Shown here one piece after another: positions 1-61,915 of a stretch of DNA of 64,000 nt; within the stretch, counting starts at the first letter, position 1, and each line of letters opens with the position of its first letter. The DNA comes from Acrasis kona. Taxonomy: Eukaryota; Heterolobosea; Eutetramitea; Acrasida; Acrasidae. The notes under the pieces were generated by a model, which did no database searches, had not been told where the DNA came from, and saw only the letters and a program-made list of their open reading frames with translations. Made by a program: the position numbers and the translations under genes. The DNA lies in NCBI GenBank assembly GCA_026419775.2, contig JAOPGA020000167.1, forward strand, positions 1-64,000, read 5' to 3'.

Positions 1-816
<816 letters not shown>

Positions 817-1346
817 TGAAGCTCTCGACAAGCTCTTTCATAATTTAACATAATATATCACTTTTNAATTATATAAGACATTAAATATAATGATTATAAC
901 ATGATTGTATCAAAATGTCGAAAATTATAAATAAATAAAGTGATCAAAATTTAAAATATGTAGTTGTGTAGATCTCAACAAGCTCTACACTTTTGATTTA
1001 ATAATATATGCCTTTGAATCAATTTCTATCGAGTTATATTCAAAAAACATGTATTTTGTACCGACTTTTAAATCAAGGCTTTTTTTATTGAATCCAAGGC
1101 TATATCTCAGTCAATAATGACCTATATCTTAATTAAACCATATTATCATGTTATATATGATGTAATCTTGTCAAAATATATATCACAAAAAAAACAATAT
1201 AACAACTACTATAGAGTCAACTAAGGTTCAAAGTCAAAAAATATTATATGATCATATGTCATAACTTTTGATGCTGATTCAGAATTTCACAATCAAAGTT
1301 GACCACGGTCAACCAGGACTCCAGGGGGGTTGCCCTTCCCCTTTGT
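817..1346. other. AT-rich subtelomeric stretch, no gene seen
   Basis: No open frame of useful length is present. The only structure I see is a perfect 7-bp inverted repeat, GTTGACC (1298-1304) and GGTCAAC (1307-1313), with a 2-base spacer. Confidence 0.6.
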
Positions 1347-1383
1347 CCAAACCCAAACCCAAACCCAGAAACCCAAACCAAAA
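1347..1383. repeat. Interstitial CCCAAA tract
   Basis: A second, slightly degenerate run of CCCAAA units (with CCCAGAAA and CCAAA variants) lies about 530 bp inside the terminal block. It abuts the first copy of the hammerhead-bearing repeat with no intervening sequence. This suggests that the repeat once joined a telomere directly. Confidence 0.85.
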
Positions 1384-1535
1384 CTCTGTAACGCGTCTGA
1401 TGATGCAGGTAGCCTGCCTGTTGAAACAGAGGTTGTTTTTATAAATTGAGTTGTTACTATACTGGCTCAGCACTTCGTGCTTCGCAAAAGAATATGAAAG
1501 AAGGTCGACAGTCGTTATGATTTATGAAACCCTGA
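1381..1535 (+). repeat. Hammerhead-bearing subtelomeric repeat, copy 1
   Basis: This 155-bp segment is nearly identical to 2609-2763 and clearly related to 2859-3014. It begins with the ribozyme core and continues through a conserved segment with a second hairpin, AGCAC (1469-1473) and GTGCT (1477-1481) around the loop TTC. It ends at the shared sequence TTTATGAAACCCT. Upstream it joins CCCAAA repeats rather than the 95-bp leader present before copies 2 and 3. Confidence 0.93.
1382..1433 (+). ncRNA. Hammerhead ribozyme, copy 1
   Basis: All conserved core positions are present in order: U16.1 at 1389, cleavage nucleotide A17 at 1390, CUGAUGA at 1397-1403, GAA at 1423-1425 and A15.1 at 1426. 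Stem III pairs CTCTGT (1384-1389) with ACAGAG (1426-1431). Stem II pairs CAGG (1406-1409) with CCTG (1417-1420) around loop TAGCCTG, extended by a G-U pair. Stem I is only the palindrome ACGCGT (1391-1396). The open ends lie in stem III, so by convention this is type III. The very small stem I suggests weak activity as a monomer, or activity as a dimer through the palindrome. Self-cleavage is predicted, not shown. Confidence 0.85.
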
Positions 1536-2515
1536 AACGTACTATTCAAGCAAGCCGATGCTGCCTCTTATATCGGCACTCATCCCTTTGAGGATTTCGA
1601 CGTGCACGTGGATACGGTATAACCCTCCGTTCGTTTATGTTAATGTTTAGCAACAACATGCCTCAAGAGTATTTTCCAGCACTTCGCAATACAGCCGACT
1701 ACTTTTTGGAGAAAGTGTGTATGCTCCGTACCTTTGATCGAAGATGACTACCCTCTGCTTCGGTGGACTTGTCGGCGTGATGCATTGGCCCATCGGTTGA
1801 TGGTATTGCACCCGGCTCTTGGTTCTATTGCTATAAACACTTGCGATAGGCCATCACTCAAGGTTTTCGACAGACGTCGAATGGTACACATACATTTTGG
1901 ATTAATACTCGGTATTAATGAAGGTGTGCTCTACTTGTAGGGATGATGCATCATTGCTTAGGAACCATTTGATGCGGACCGAACGTTACATTAGGTCTTA
2001 AGATCAGGTTTTACGTAAACTTGCTTTCGACTCTATGGTGGCACACGAAGTCTTAACTACTGCTTCTACTTTATTTTTGGCTACATTATCTACGGTAATG
2101 GGACATTTGGGACCTTCATTTGACTCGGTCCAATAGAATTTAATTCTTCGAGACCAGTACCTTCGAAAGTCATTTGATTGTGATGTCGCGTTCACAACGT
2201 CACCCCTCTTGTCATATAACTATTGCTGTCCGCGGACTATCATTTTCGCACTCACGGTGCAGAGTATGGAGATGAGAAAAAAGAATTGAAGAAGGTCTTG
2301 GAATAAATATTGGAAATCTTTATTGCCGGTCACCCGACTGGTACAGTATTGAGGAACGATTCATAGAAAGGTTAGATTTGGATGATTTACAGATTGGAAT
2401 GAAGCATTGCAGCCGGTCGGACATGAACTTGTCGCTTCCACTAAGTGAATACCGCTGACCAGTCGACACCATTAGGTTACTTTTTATGCATATGACAAGA
2501 GGGGACCCAAACCAG
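1536..2515. other. Subtelomeric spacer between repeat copies 1 and 2
   Basis: About 980 bp with short open stretches but no convincing gene. The longest (1734-1940 +, 68 codons) has no recognisable domain and is interrupted on both sides. If copies 1 and 2 are the ends of one element, this would be its degenerate internal region. I cannot identify a primer-binding site, reverse transcriptase or protease in it. Confidence 0.5.
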
Positions 2516-2610
2516 CCAGCCTCCTATTTACCCCCAACGGCGACTTACATTACAACCGAATCCTGAGTTGATAATAGTTGACCACATTTTGTAACAAATT
2601 TCACAATAAA

Positions 2611-2664
2611 AACTCTGTAACGCGTCTGACGAGACTAGTTGCCTGCTAGTTGAAACAGAGGTTG
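2611..2664 (+). ncRNA. Hammerhead ribozyme, copy 2 (covariant)
   Basis: The core is intact: U16.1 at 2618, A17 at 2619, CUGACGA at 2626-2632, GAA at 2652-2654 and A15.1 at 2655. The only core change from copy 1 is at N7, the one unconstrained base of CUGANGA. Stem II is rewritten to CTAG (2635-2638) with CTAG (2646-2649), plus A2634-T2650 and a closing G2633-T2651. Two base pairs are changed on both sides and one wobble becomes Watson-Crick, while the loop stays TTGCCTG against TAGCCTG. Stem III and the palindromic stem I ACGCGT are unchanged. This pattern is what selection on RNA structure leaves. Confidence 0.87.
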
Positions 2665-2860
2665 TTTTTATAAATTGAGTTGTTACTATACTGGCTCAGC
2701 ACTTCGTGCTTCGCAAAAGAATATGGAAGAAGGTCGACAGTCGTTATGATTTATGAAACCCTGCCAGACTCCTATTACCCAAATGGCAACTTACATTACA
2801 ACCGAATCATTCCTGAGTTGATGATAGTTGACCGAATTTTGTAACTTTTTCACAAATAAA

Positions 2861-2914
2861 AACTCTNTAACGCGTCTGATGATGCAGGTAGCCTGCCTGT
2901 TGAAACAGAGGTCA
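2861..2914 (+). ncRNA. Hammerhead ribozyme, copy 3
   Basis: Same core as copy 1: U16.1 at 2868, A17 at 2869, CUGAUGA at 2876-2882, stem II CAGG (2885-2888) with CCTG (2896-2899), then GAAA and stem III closing at 2910. One stem III base (2867) is an N in the assembly and would be G by analogy. Downstream its second hairpin reads AGCGC/GCGCT (2949-2953, 2957-2961) where copies 1 and 2 have AGCAC/GTGCT. That is a compensated A-T to G-C pair. Confidence 0.84.
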
Positions 2915-3014
2915 GTTTTTGTTAATTGATTTGTTACTTTACTGGCTCAGCGCTTCGCGCTTCGCAAAAGAACGTTTAATGAAGGATCGCAGTCGTTGTG
3001 ATTTATGAAACCCT

Positions 3015-3414
3015 TTTTCTAACCTTAAACGCTTTGTTGGGGGATGATGAGGTGTTTTGTGAGTGTTATGGCTGCCGTTTGCAGCGCTGCTGCTTGTATC
3101 GTGGTTTCTTTTCATTTAGAATGAGTGGATGCATGTTNGTGCTTGATTTTGTATGCTTATTTAATAGTCAACCAATATGTTCGAAGTCACACAGATGCTG
3201 GAAATATGTTATTTTATTATATCTTTGTGAGGGAGGCATCATTGAATGATTTGATTTCACAAGCGCATACATGATACAATCCCAATGGTCTTCAAGTAGA
3301 AATCTATTATTGGCATCCGAGATATTGGTTCGGTACTTTTGTTTGTAATCAACTCATATGTTTACAATGACTACATTTGACACTTTACAATAATAATTTA
3401 TTCATTTTTGGTAA
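3015..3414. other. Subtelomere-to-gene transition, no clear gene
   Basis: A frame open from 2998 to 3249 starts inside repeat copy 3, is cysteine-rich and contains an N; nothing marks it as a real gene. The last part before 3415 is AT-rich and probably holds the promoter of the ankyrin gene. Confidence 0.45.
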
Positions 3415-4515
3415 ATGAAGCGGGCTTTTTATGATTGGTTTGACGATGAACCTGTTTGCAGGAAAGTTGCGAAAACTTCTGAAAACTATGGATTGAATGA
3501 AGACGTGCTGTCCGTCGTGTTTTCGTACCTTACCACCAAAGAAGTGGCAATGCAAAGCCACGCGACAGTGAACAAAGCATTCTACGCTGGCATGCTACAT
3601 TGTTTTGCGGGAAGACACGACGCATTCGCAATGGCAATAAGAAACGGCAATAGCAGGCTGATTGAGAGATGCTTCGCGAACGACGCCATCGATTACGGCG
3701 CGAAAGGCAATTTGTTCTTAAAATTGGCGGCTTCGAAAGGGATGGTTTGGGTTGTGGAGAGGCTGCTCAAGAAGGATGGGGTGGACCCAACACACAAACA
3801 AAATGAATCATTGATAGCTGCGTCGGAGAATGGGCACGTCGAAGTCATAAAATTGCTTATATCGGACGGTAGGGTCAGGCCAACCGCTTGGAGCAATCTT
3901 GCCATCAGAAGCGCGTGCTTACGCGGACACATTGACGCGGTGGAGGTGTTTTTGACCTGCACTAGAGCCGATCCAACCGTTCTCGATAACTTACCCATCA
4001 ACTTGGCAGCTGAAAACGGACGCGTCGCATTGGTTGAACTTTTGATGAAACGACCTAACGTCGATCCTTCGGCTCGAAATAACGGAGCCATCATGGCAGC
4101 CTCCCTCCGCGGAAATGTCGAGTGCGCAAGATTGCTACTACGAGACGAACGCGTGGACGCCGATGCACGTACACGAGCGTTGGAATTGGCAATAAGTCAT
4201 AATCATTATCAACTAGTAGAATTGCTGTTGAAAGATGAGCTTGCCGATCCTACTTTCAACTCTAACAAAAATATAATCCTAGCATCGAGCCGAGGATACA
4301 ATGGGATAGTGCAGATGCTGCTGGAGGATGGACGATCAGATCCCTCCACCAACAACAATTTAGCCTTAATCCGTGCGTGCGAGAACAAACGAAGGCTGAC
4401 AGTAAAACTGTTGTTGAGCGACAGGCGAGTAGATTGTGGAGCGGTTAAGAATAACCATAACTTCATCAAGGAAAAAATACTCGAATCACCATTCAAAATA
4501 TATGGTTGGGTTTGA
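3415..4515 (+). CDS. F-box-like ankyrin repeat protein
   Basis: A 366-aa single-exon protein. An F-box-like segment lies near residues 27-45 (L-N-E-D-V-L-S-V-V-F-S-Y-L). It is followed by about nine ankyrin-type repeats of roughly 31 residues with the signature GHVEVIKLLISD or RVDPSARNN. The combination suggests a substrate receptor of an SCF-type ubiquitin ligase, with the ankyrin stack binding a client; the client is unknown. The D-P-x-x-N repeat style is shared with the larger ankyrin protein at 52299-54072 and is common in amoebae and their giant viruses. The ATG at 3415 is preceded by an AT-rich leader and fits the F-box position. Confidence 0.85.
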   Translation: MKRAFYDWFDDEPVCRKVAKTSENYGLNEDVLSVVFSYLTTKEVAMQSHATVNKAFYAGMLHCFAGRHDAFAMAIRNGNSRLIERCFANDAIDYGAKGNLFLKLAASKGMVWVVERLLKKDGVDPTHKQNESLIAASENGHVEVIKLLISDGRVRPTAWSNLAIRSACLRGHIDAVEVFLTCTRADPTVLDNLPINLAAENGRVALVELLMKRPNVDPSARNNGAIMAASLRGNVECARLLLRDERVDADARTRALELAISHNHYQLVELLLKDELADPTFNSNKNIILASSRGYNGIVQMLLEDGRSDPSTNNNLALIRACENKRRLTVKLLLSDRRVDCGAVKNNHNFIKEKILESPFKIYGWV

Positions 4516-4737
4516 GTTAACGCGATACTTGTAATTTCAATAAATAGGACGTTTTATCAATCGAGGGGAACGCTCACCAAAGCCTGGAATTGCATCCAAC
4601 GTCCGACACATCCTCGCCATTGCTGATGATTGTACGAAGAAAGACTGCACGGACGCCAAGATCTAAGAGTACCCATCAACAACAGACGACTACAGATAAA
4701 AGCCTTGTGAATCGCTAACCAAAGTTTAATTCCACCA

Positions 4738-5643
4738 TCAAACGTGATTTCTAACAACTTCGCTTACCAGCCCTCTATCTATGGTAGGATCAGCATACAA
4801 CGCCACACTCCCTTCCTTTGTCGGCAGACTTTTTCCGATCTTGTTGAACGCGAGGGATGTATCGACCAACGGCACCTGCCATCCCTGTTGATCGATGCCC
4901 ACTCCATACCATGATGATTCCGAATGATCGTAAGCATACACGATGGAACCATTGTGAGAAAGCATTGCCCTGGCAAGCACTATCATGTTGTGATCCAAGT
5001 TGCTTTTCGAACGCACAAACAAAATCATCCAGGAGCATAGGCGAGACACAACGTATCCAACCATCAATTGTGGAAGGAAGATACTTTTCGGGTTCAGAAA
5101 CGGCAGCATAGAACTGTCCTTACAGTCAAATCCCATCATGTTGCTGAAGTGCACCACGCCATCTCTAGCTGATCGGGTGTTGCCTACGTTAGCAAACGTT
5201 TTACCCGTGCTGTTGTTTTTGTTGATGAGCATGGTTCTCAGGGCAATTTGATGGCCATGTTTTTGAAGCACATCACAATCTCCAGGAGACAGGACGAAGT
5301 CGCGATCATACACAGGCAATAGCAAGGGTAAGTCGTCGAATGCATTGAATGCGACTATAAACCTACTCCGTTTGGTCCGAAAGTTGTCATCAGATGAGCA
5401 AGCCGCGAACGCGTTGCATGAGGTGTTTATCTTATTCCACTCTTCCTGCGACAACGTCGGGCCGCTCCATACGTTGCTGTACTCTTCTTGATCTTCCGCA
5501 AAATATACCATCAAGTCCTGCGTGGACAAGCATACCATCAAGTCCTGCGTGGATAGAGGGTTGGTTTCTCCGAACTGTTTGCCTGCCTAAATTTCCTGCG
5601 ACAGATCGTCGTCGATTAGTGTCCTGAACTTTAATTTCTTCAT
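4738..5643 (-). pseudogene. Unknown protein gene with an in-frame TAG
   Basis: From ATG 5643-5641 the frame reads 18 codons (M-K-K-L-K-F-R-T-L), meets TAG at 5589-5587, then stays open for 282 codons to the stop at 4738. The part after the stop is well-behaved coding sequence without a recognisable domain. Its first ATG (5538) lies within a 27-bp in-frame tandem duplication (copies starting at 5507 and 5534) that encodes S-T-Q-D-L-M-V twice. Either the gene is inactivated, or it uses an internal start, or the TAG is a sequencing error. It is convergent with the F-box/ankyrin gene. I do not recognise the family. Confidence 0.5.
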
Positions 5644-52298: not shown

Positions 52299-54072
52299 AT
52301 GTTAAATTCTAAGGATACCAGTGTTGTACAACTACCTGTTGAGATTTGGAAAATTATATCCGATTTTTACTTTTACACCGAACGTATTCCTTTAGAGTTT
52401 GGAACGAAAGATGAATGTAGAACTATAGTTGAAAACTTTGAACAACAATTACTTGTTCTTCTTTCAATTTGTAAAGAGAACGAAGACATAGTCGATATGA
52501 TTCTTAGTGAATGGTTTGAAAAGGATTTTGAACATTTAAACCAATTAATGCTTGGTGGTAACCTGCCACTTACCAGAATAATGTACAGCCTCAAGTCCCC
52601 ACAGCATCGATTCAATGTTCTTGTGGAGTACGGCTTGTCAAAAGAAAATGGGTATGATGAGGTTATGGAAGTACGACACGAAGAAGTAAAAATGCATCAA
52701 CATAATCAAAAACCTAATACAAGATGAGAGTGTCGACCCCAACCGTGGTGACCCCAATCCTATTGACTCTTGTTCTGGTAACTTCTATATAGGCCCTTTT
52801 CGTTCAGCTTGTTATAATGGTCACATAGATCTTGTTCGATTGTTTCTCAACGAAAAGCGAGTTGATCATGGAGAAGGTCACGAATGTATTTCATCAGCCG
52901 GCGAGGAAGGGCACATAGATGTAGTTAAACTGCTTTTAGATGACCCACGTGTTAACCCTGGTGCAGGTGATAATCATGCTATTAAAATAGCTAGCCAGAC
53001 GGGGCAAGCAAACGTAGTTAAACTGTTTTTAAAAGATCCACGTGTTAACCCTGCTGCAGGTGATAATATTTGTATTAGAGTAGCTAGCTTAAATGGACAT
53101 GTAGATGTAGTTGAGCTACTTTTAAATGATCCACGTGTTGATCCTAGTGCAGAGGATGATGTTTGTATTCGACGAGCTAGCATGAATGGGCACGCAGATG
53201 TAGTAAAACTACTTTTAAATGATTCACGTGTTGATCCTAGTGCAGAGGATAATTCTGCTATTAAAGACGCTAGCAAAGATGGACACGCAAACGTAGTTGA
53301 GCTACTTTTAAAGGATCCACGTGTTGATCCTAGTGCAGAGGATGATGTTTGTATTCTAGGAGCTAGCTTGAATGGGCATGCAGATGTAGTAAAACTACTT
53401 TTAAATGATTCAAGTGTTGATCCTAGTGCAGAGGATAATTCTGCTATTAAAGACGCTAGCACATATGGACAAGCAAACATAGTTGAGCTACTTTTAAAGG
53501 ATCCACGTGTTGATCCTAGTGTAGACAAGAATATTTGTATTCGACGAGCTGGCATGAATGGGCACGCAGATGTAGTAAAACTACTTTTAAATGATCCACG
53601 TGTTGATCCTAGTGTAGACTATAATGTCTGTATTCTAGGAGCTAGCTTGAATGGGCATGCAGATGTAGTAAAACTACTTTTAAATGATTCACGTGTTGAT
53701 CCTAGTGCAGAGGATAATTCTGCTATTAAAGACGCTAGCAAAGATGGACACGCAAACGTAGTTGAGCTACTTTTAAAGGATCCACGTGTTGATCCTAGTG
53801 CAGGCGATAACAGTTCTTTTAGGAGAGCTTGTAGGCGTAGACATGCAAATGTAGTTCGACTTCTTTTAGATGATCCTCGTGTTGATCCTTTTGTACGGGA
53901 CAATAAATCTATTAAAAGAGCCAGGATCGAAGAAGACACAGATATAATTCAAATTCTTATGAACGATGCACGTGTGAGAATGAAAGTGAACAAAGACTTA
54001 CAAATAATAAAATCATTCCTTATATCGAGAGTACTGGGTTTCCGAAATGCTTATGAAATGTTCCCGAAATAG
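52299..54072 (+). CDS. Large ankyrin repeat protein, one homopolymer frameshift
   Basis: The N-terminal part (from ATG 52299) has an F-box-like L-P-V-E-I-W-K-I-I-S-D-F. The frame is lost at an A5 run (52688-52692). With one A fewer the reading continues C-I-N-I-I-K-N-L-I-Q-D-E-S-V-D-P-N directly into the open ankyrin frame that runs to 54072. There are at least 11 ankyrin units of 31 residues (93 bp) with the consensus D-P-R-V-D-P-S-A-E-D-N plus G-H-A-D-V-V-K-L-L-L. From about 53130 to 53800 the units alternate in two types, giving a roughly 186-bp higher-order period with near-identical DNA, a sign of recent unequal crossing-over. It probably binds partner proteins, perhaps as an SCF adaptor like the gene at 3415. 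Confidence 0.8.
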
Positions 54073-61414: not shown

Positions 61415-61915
61415 ATGTTCAAGCCCATACGGTTGAGGATATTCAATAATGTTAGCGCTAGAAACTTTAATTGGTTTAAATTTCCATCAAGCAGTACCAG
61501 TAACCCATTATTTTATAAGCATTTAGATCTATACACCGATGGATTCAATAAAATTTGTCCATACAAAGAGTTCTCTCACCCTGGAATATATAAAATAACT
61601 AATCGCAAGAATGGAATGATGTACATTGGTATGAGCTTGGACATCAGAAAAAGGATCAAACAACACATAAGAGATGCATTTTTATATAGATATGACAAAT
61701 CAAGCAGACAGCACGATGATTCATCAGTTGTTAGTCAAGCAGTAGCGGAAAATGACTTTGACTTCGACTATGAGATCTTGGAAAAAATTCCATTAATAAA
61801 GGCAAGAACACTCACAACTGCACAGCTTAAAAAATTATTAAGGGAAAAGGAGAGGGAATGGATAATGAACTACAAGTCATATGAGAGAAATGTCGGGTAT
61901 AATCAAGTAAAATAG
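61415..61915 (+). CDS. Stand-alone GIY-YIG nuclease
   Basis: 166 aa. A basic N-terminal 50 residues could be a mitochondrial targeting segment (R-L-R-I-F-N-N-V-S-A-R-N-F). It is followed by a complete GIY-YIG domain: G-I-Y-K-I-T-N (57-63), M-Y-I-G-M-S (69-74), R-K-R-I-K-Q-H (78-84) and R-E-K-E-R-E-W-I with the catalytic Glu. Homing endonucleases and viral or bacterial single-domain nucleases have this form. No intron or intein host is adjacent. The role is unknown. Confidence 0.85.
   Translation: MFKPIRLRIFNNVSARNFNWFKFPSSSTSNPLFYKHLDLYTDGFNKICPYKEFSHPGIYKITNRKNGMMYIGMSLDIRKRIKQHIRDAFLYRYDKSSRQHDDSSVVSQAVAENDFDFDYEILEKIPLIKARTLTTAQLKKLLREKEREWIMNYKSYERNVGYNQVK

Follow-up and report, generated by a model that had tools for sequence, protein, structure and literature searches.

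Hammerhead motifs near the end of a contig

One end of contig C88 of the Acrasis kona genome carries three similar short repeats that an earlier note on this DNA took to be hammerhead ribozymes, each transcribed and cleaving itself. We sought to determine whether these repeats are hammerheads at all, whether one copy could cut by itself, and to what kind of element they belong. The window analysed is the first 64 kb of C88, within an assembly of 37,352,617 bases on 1021 contigs.

In the window sequence, all three copies read CUCUGU-A-ACGCGU-CUGANGA, followed by stem II with its 7-nt loop and then GAA-ACAGAG, which is the layout of a type III hammerhead. As the earlier note had it, CUGANGA, GAA and the A15.1-U16.1 pair stand in the right order and at the right spacing in each repeat we inspected, and the cleavage-site residue H17 falls on the same adenosines, A1390, A2619 and A2869. 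Copy 1 (1384-1431, plus strand, allele A) is delineated by sequence, copy alignment and covariation, and comprises stem III (1384-1389/1426-1431), H17 at A1390, a palindromic hexamer (1391-1396), the core (1397-1403), stem II (1405-1409/1417-1421) closed by loop II (1410-1416), and GAA (1423-1425). Copy 2 (2613-2660, plus strand, allele B), drawn from the same three kinds of evidence, has stem III at 2613-2618/2655-2660, H17 at A2619, the hexamer at 2620-2625, the core at 2626-2632, stem II at 2634-2638/2646-2650, loop II at 2639-2645 and GAA at 2652-2654. Copy 3 (2863-2910, plus strand, allele A), placed by sequence and copy alignment, carries an N in stem III (position 2867), with H17 at A2869, the hexamer at 2870-2875, the core at 2876-2882, stem II at 2884-2888/2896-2900 and GAA at 2902-2904.

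Copy 2 is unlike the other two at N7 (C for U), and its stem II is changed on both sides, from CAGG/CCTG to CTAG/CTAG together with a G-U to A-U replacement; both points had been read correctly before. Because copies 1 and 3 share the same stem II sequence, the window offers one compensatory comparison only, that of copy 2 with copies 1 and 3. Copy 2 differs further at 10.1 (G for U) and in loop II. The 10.1-11.1 pair is U.U or G.U, not Watson-Crick, and a U.U mismatch at the base of stem II is described for a natural hammerhead (excerpt of PMC7229834).

The bare core pattern is common by chance, with 25 matches in the window against 19.9 expected and 18 of 100 shuffles reaching 25. A full type III descriptor, consisting of the core, stem II, GAA and a 6-bp stem III with A15.1-U16.1, recovers copies 1 and 2 and has no match on either strand when the window, taken from base 757 onward, is dinucleotide-shuffled 150 times. 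Copy 3 escapes this descriptor because of its N. A scan of 213,526 bases of loci from the same genome revealed no other hammerhead.

Copies elsewhere in the genome and conservation of the motif

A DNA search of the whole genome gave 33 matches that resolved, after their surroundings were checked and with up to 7 substitutions allowed, into 31 motif copies on 22 contigs. Further genomic copies with paired stems, on which the earlier note had partly staked its reading, are thus present, although two of the 31 are broken in stem III (the copy on C549 and the second copy on C382). A 20-place pattern with 3 mismatches matched the genome 32 times, and 30 of these matches are rows of the 31-copy alignment; the other two are a 3′-broken fragment on C402 and a probable chance match on C165. 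The C402 fragment, with CTCTGTAACGCATCTGACGAGACTAG, ends inside stem II and looks like an old 3′-broken copy. When a model trained on the 31 copies was run against 39 sequence sources at E ≤ 5, its 35 matches comprised all 31 rows used for training, three fragments and a single match at E 1.7. The 20-place pattern had 0 matches in IMG/VR, and a shorter pattern had 22 in GTDB genomes, none of which extended into a hammerhead on reading.

Stem II occurs as CAGG/CCTG in 17 copies, CTAG/CTAG in 10 (three of them with one further loop or stem change) and CCAG/CTGG in 4. Over the 15 distinct rows, 98.7% of stem II cells and 93.3% of stem III cells are paired; for all 11 pairs taken together the figure is 95.7% of 164 cells, compared with 24.4-53.0% after the columns are slid by 1-3. 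Changes on both sides are found at two pairs (A-U/U-A/C-G and A-U/G-C) and a third pair alternates between G-U and A-U; the both-sided changes are confined to stem II and absent from stem III. The covariation score of 0.281 exceeds that of shuffled alignments (0.137 ± 0.019) and is reached by none of 500 shuffles. Neither the count of both-sided pairs (2, against a mean of 1.8, with 389 of 500 shuffles reaching it) nor that of further pair types (5 against 5.9, with 498 of 500 reaching it) exceeds the shuffled values, which is no surprise for closely related copies that share just three main stem II alleles.

Conservation points in the same direction. Among the 22 copies with a complete 5′ part, none of the 28 fixed hammerhead positions varies in two or more copies, compared with 29 of 170 surrounding sites (Fisher P = 0.008), and 2 of the 28 vary in a single row. 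By contrast, 9 of the 20 sites in N7, stem II and loop II vary (P = 0.0065 for the excess). Across all 31 rows, the core, GAA and H17 = A are invariant, and A15.1 is kept in 30, the exception being C549. This is the trace expected of a functional hammerhead, and it is our main reason for taking the motif as real. Selection on RNA pairing, argued earlier from the window copies, is now backed by the third stem II allele elsewhere, by the covariation counts and by the invariant core.

Alleles A and B each combine with either flank type, GGTTGTTTTT or GGTCAGTTTTT, suggesting that templates were switched or recombination took place within the motif.

Anatomy of the element

The motif belongs to a non-coding unit some 250 nt long and lies about 100 nt upstream of the 3′ end of this unit. 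This end is fixed, as ...GATTTATGAAACCC with an AAACCC terminus, in 27 of 28 insertion blocks and in 30 of 31 alignment rows. In the window, where all parts of the element lie on the plus strand, a telomere-like (CCAAAC)n tract at 1347-1384 caps the 5′-truncated first copy. The 3′ region of that copy (1432-1532), defined by copy comparison and consensus fold, holds a hairpin and the 3′ end ATGAAACCC. It is followed by the 972-bp non-coding body (1533-2504, longest open reading frame 68 aa) of a long, 1228-bp form. After ACCCAAACC at 2505-2513 comes a short unit of subfamily A (2514-2761), running from AGCCAGCC to AAACCC, and head to tail with it a short unit of subfamily B (2762-3013), running from TGCCAGAC to AAACCC.

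The order motif-body-motif, at a spacing of 1228-1229 nt, is found on C88, C419 and C1006, and motif pairs 151-253 nt apart are found on C88, C690, C261 and C382, so that tandem motifs within 1.3 kb occur on these 6 of the 22 contigs. Truncation at the 5′ end is frequent, and occurs directly after telomere-like repeats on C88 (the tract at 1347-1384), C261, C781 and C1020. The 5′ start lies within 20 nt upstream of H17 in 6 of the 23 blocks with a determinable 5′ end; a single block (the second copy on C382) begins where a cleaved RNA would, and the 5′ ends therefore do not demonstrate cleavage. In the 3′ region, the consensus fold contains a hairpin in which one pair is replaced on both sides, A-U becoming G-C, in 6 of 31 rows; folds of single sequences from this region are no better than those of shuffles. 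No target-site duplication was seen by eye in the flanks of the 28 blocks.

Position at chromosome ends

The repeat (AAACCC)4 is present on 15 contigs. Of 13 arrays checked, 12 are no more than 0.7 kb from a contig end, and in every one of the 13 the C-rich strand runs inward, as in telomeres. Element blocks also gather there: 21 of 29 are within 4 kb of a contig end, 17 of these with the 3′ end inward (P = 0.0036), and the same orientation holds for 15 of 17 blocks within 2 kb and 18 of 24 within 6 kb. Because contig ends arise at repeats too, and C88 and C837 are the only contigs on which the element shares an end with a telomeric array, we grade the term subtelomeric by contig: it is well supported for those two and likely for the family as a whole. 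The subtelomeric place proposed earlier for the repeats is accordingly supported by the terminal repeats at the window end, the (AAACCC)n arrays and the orientation of the blocks.

The terminal simple repeats of the window, (AC)n, (ACCA)n and (AACCCA)n, occupy positions 1-816, with no strand assigned, at the contig end, and their order is repeated at other ends. Going inward, the fixed order is (AC)n, (CCAA)n, (CCCAAA)n. All three are found at the window end and on C488, and (CCAA)n then (CCCAAA)n at the ends of C609, C330, C186, C436 and C317; the ends of C229 and C628 additionally bear (AAAACCCC)n or (AAACCCC)n. These layered end repeats represent either an unusual layered telomere or an effect of assembly.

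Missing stem I and a predicted double hammerhead

Self-cleavage by each repeat alone, as first proposed, is unlikely on the sequence. The gap from H17 to C3 is six bases in 31 of 31 rows and leaves no stem I in cis, since at most two pairs with a 2-nt loop could form inside one copy. The covariance scan with the Rfam hammerhead models that had been put forward as a check yielded no match at the gathering score in the window. It gave none at E ≤ 10 in positions 800-3100 and none at E ≤ 5 in five further loci; the best rows were unrelated and weak. We infer that the missing cis stem I explains the absence of Rfam hammerhead matches.

The six bases are ACGCGU in 29 of 31 rows, ACGCAU once and ACUCGU once. 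ACGCGU is its own reverse complement, so that each copy's enzyme strand matches the substrate strand of every other copy, stems I and III then having 6 bp each; stem I can be closed only between two copies. In such a pair, the enzyme strand ACGCGU-CUGANGA-stem II-GAA-ACAGAG would bind the partner's substrate CUCUGUA/ACGCGU (/ denotes the predicted cleavage position), forming a double hammerhead. Written out for a tandem transcript, this structure is fully nested as base pairs. Its strand order is that of trans-acting type III constructs without a helix I loop (described in part of PMC6155905).

Energy folding, as it stands, counts against the double hammerhead. The modelled structure has -24.5 to -28.7 kcal/mol, compared with -34.0 to -40.8 kcal/mol for the dimer minima, and is about equal to two separate monomers (-23.2 to -29.4 kcal/mol). 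Folding energies leave out the tertiary core of the hammerhead. For single copies with alleles A and C, a 5-bp hairpin across the core, GCGUC-UGAU-GAUGC, is the predicted preference; in the fold of copy 2, stems II and III are present in the centroid, not in the minimum. The element also has no loop I for the customary contact between loops I and II. We rejected the hairpin across the core as a conserved structure on account of how it behaves in allele B; two of its pairs are broken in 6 of 15 distinct rows, and it shows no both-sided change.

A neighbouring Penelope-like element

A second element, TRE-B, ends directly upstream of eight copies of the hammerhead-bearing element, in the same orientation and with the 3′ end GTAGGAAACCC; 12 of the 14 TRE-B 3′ ends found terminate in AAACCC. 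A full copy on C1020 (positions 1056-5267 of the extracted locus) has a basic ORF1 and an ORF2 of 957 aa, counted from the first ATG at 2115 of that locus. Neither ORF has a Pfam match at E ≤ 0.05, GIY-YIG included, and ORF2 alone has no PDB match. Relatives of ORF2 are more informative: of 30 found, 15 carry RVT_1 and 6 GIY-YIG in precomputed annotation, and the reverse transcriptase (RT) motifs DFTSLYT, GIPMGTNASPEIAN, FLDD and FLD of ORF2 align with theirs. A profile of this alignment has its strongest matches among group II intron and retron RTs (best E 3.8e-5), whereas its matches to telomerase RT are weak (0.29-0.35). The genome contains two GIY-YIG matches, neither of them on C1020. TRE-B fragments on C229 and C609 are capped by telomeric repeats.

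With an RT, no GIY-YIG found and telomeric junctions, TRE-B is an endonuclease-less telomere-associated Penelope-like element. Such anatomy is described for endonuclease-less telomeric Penelope-like elements and Terminons (parts of PMC3846280 and PMC6431247), and Athena and Coprina likewise have a telomerase-like RT, no GIY-YIG found and telomeric repeats at the truncated 5′ end (PMC3846280, in excerpt). TRE-B differs from Athena and Coprina in that the loci scanned contain no hammerhead core. The earlier note had placed the repeats in a mobile-element setting of the Penelope or retrozyme sort, and the non-coding tandem units, the AAACCC ends and the adjoining TRE-B agree with this.

The link between TRE-B and the hammerhead-bearing element consists of their neighbourhood and the shared AAACCC. 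The genome holds 49 matches to TRE-B ORF2 and at least 150 RVT_1 matches of other kinds, and the mobilizer could thus be another RT.

The 3′ UTR of TRE-B (5104-5267 of the C1020 locus) opens with AATAAAGACTCTGTCAAC, near the AATAAAAACTCTGTAAC of the hammerhead-bearing element, and a later AAGAGT could pair with ACTCT; CUGANGA is absent. This UTR is possibly a lost hammerhead. One of the two genomic GIY-YIG matches is in the window, at 61580-61693 on the plus strand, without a tie to the element.

Proposed mechanism and alternatives

We consider the element to be, probably, retrozyme-like and carried as a passenger by a telomere-associated Penelope-like element; type III hammerheads dimerized through stem I would cut the tandem transcripts of this passenger to unit length. 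Read-through transcripts of head-to-tail copies would fold into double hammerheads via the hexamers; alternatively, two RNAs would pair through them. Both sites would be cut, and cleavage after A1390, A2619 and A2869 would release RNAs 1229 and 250 nt long. Either in linear form or circularized by ligation, the unit-length RNA would serve as template for the TRE-B RT, primed by a telomeric G-rich overhang annealed to the AAACCC of the template. For another Penelope-like element, the hammerhead is described as cutting only with its protein present, and insertion in vitro as having no need of cleavage (part of PMC11167929), which calls for caution in tying cleavage to mobilization.

More tentatively, and with somewhat less than even confidence, we propose that this is a natural obligate-pair hammerhead. 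The palindromic hexamer would act at once as the stem I arm of enzyme and of substrate, and only tandem copies or two RNAs would cut, freeing a unit RNA from telomeric arrays for chromosome-end-primed copying in trans by the Penelope-like enzyme. The ribozyme would then report the presence of the element in a telomeric array.

Other readings account for parts of these data. It is unlikely, though still worth weighing, that the motif derives from a hammerhead and is retained for another RNA task without cleavage, such as binding of the RT or setting the 5′ end of the cDNA. The absence of Rfam hammerhead matches, the 6 of 23 blocks that start just upstream of H17, as if an RT stopped there, and the in vitro insertion of a Penelope-like element without need of hammerhead cleavage (PMC11167929, in excerpt) would all fit such a role; that none of the 28 catalytic positions varies in two or more copies while the free N7 does vary fits catalysis better. 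We give less credence to cleavage of each copy on its own as a cis type III hammerhead with a stem I of 1-2 bp. The core and stems II and III are complete, and A1.1 could pair with U2.1 and C1.2 with G2.2; the remaining loop would have just 2 nt, however, making stem I sterically poor, and the strict conservation of the palindrome (29 of 31 rows) would go unexplained.

Least probable, and very unlikely, is a chance likeness to a hammerhead in a repeat that conserves some other hairpin. Two observations speak for it, namely the frequency of the bare core and the hairpin across the core, which is the energy minimum of copy 1 and of the C690 copy. Against it stand the full descriptor, absent from all 150 shuffles, the lack of any other hammerhead in the 213,526 bases scanned, and the alignment itself, in which the cross-core hairpin is broken and uncompensated while stem II is kept. 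Dimeric cleavage of tandem transcripts remains the reading we prefer.

Comparison with known ribozyme elements

The statement in the earlier note that hammerheads delimit mobile elements holds here for the setting, not for the delimiting: some 100 nt separate the motif from the 3′ end of the element downstream. For Penelope-like elements and Terminons, minimal hammerheads were reportedly described by Cervera and de la Pena in 2014 and by Arkhipova et al. and Lunse et al. in 2017.

Much of the present arrangement has precedents. Hammerheads in Penelope-like elements, Terminons and retrozymes, and dimeric action, are already known (parts of PMC6155905, PMC7761336 and PMC7229834). Penelope and Terminon hammerheads, like the one described here, are located near the 3′ end of a telomere retroelement and are followed by reverse-complement telomeric repeats; their elements also show 5′ truncation by telomeric repeats and head-to-tail arrays, and one helix is likewise too short, with dimeric action proposed (excerpts of PMC7761336 and PMC6431247). 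These hammerheads are, however, of type I with a reduced helix III (PMC7761336 and PMC6155905, in part), whereas the element's is of type III with a reduced helix I. In the excerpts of this literature, their motif sits in the RT-bearing element itself; here it sits in a non-coding partner.

Plant LTR retrozymes, with type III motifs, are non-autonomous and non-coding and carry tandem hammerheads at unit-length spacing, as the element does, and the same is true of metazoan non-LTR retrozymes, with type I motifs (parts of PMC7229834 and PMC7761336). The combination that marks a plant retrozyme, two direct repeats with type III hammerheads and a non-coding body, is found on C88, C419 and C1006. 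The element differs from retrozymes in its telomeric 3′ end and in a stem I reduced to the hexamer; no target-site duplication was visible by eye.

Avocado sunblotch viroid and newt satellite RNA carry hammerheads that are weak alone and active as tandem dimers, as proposed here, but these dimerize through helix III, whereas the element's predicted dimer forms through stem I (PMC6155905, in excerpt). Concatenated viroid dimers are described as merging through helix I, and so is an artificial hammerhead crystallized as a dimer (part of PMC4960562). No natural motif with a palindromic stem I strand was found in the literature searched, which consisted of partial texts and left out key Penelope-hammerhead papers. 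Dimerization through stem I would widen the ways in which natural hammerheads stay silent singly and active in tandem. What hammerheads do in Penelope-like and telomeric retroelements is described as unknown (part of PMC7761336); a single genome that combined three compensated alleles, a dimer that looks obligatory and an RT directed to telomeres would make this role testable with short RNAs.

Other features of the window

Beyond the repeats, the window contains two intron-less ankyrin-repeat-like ORFs, named by eye, at 3415-4515 and 53182-54072; the latter lies within an array of 93-bp tandem repeats.
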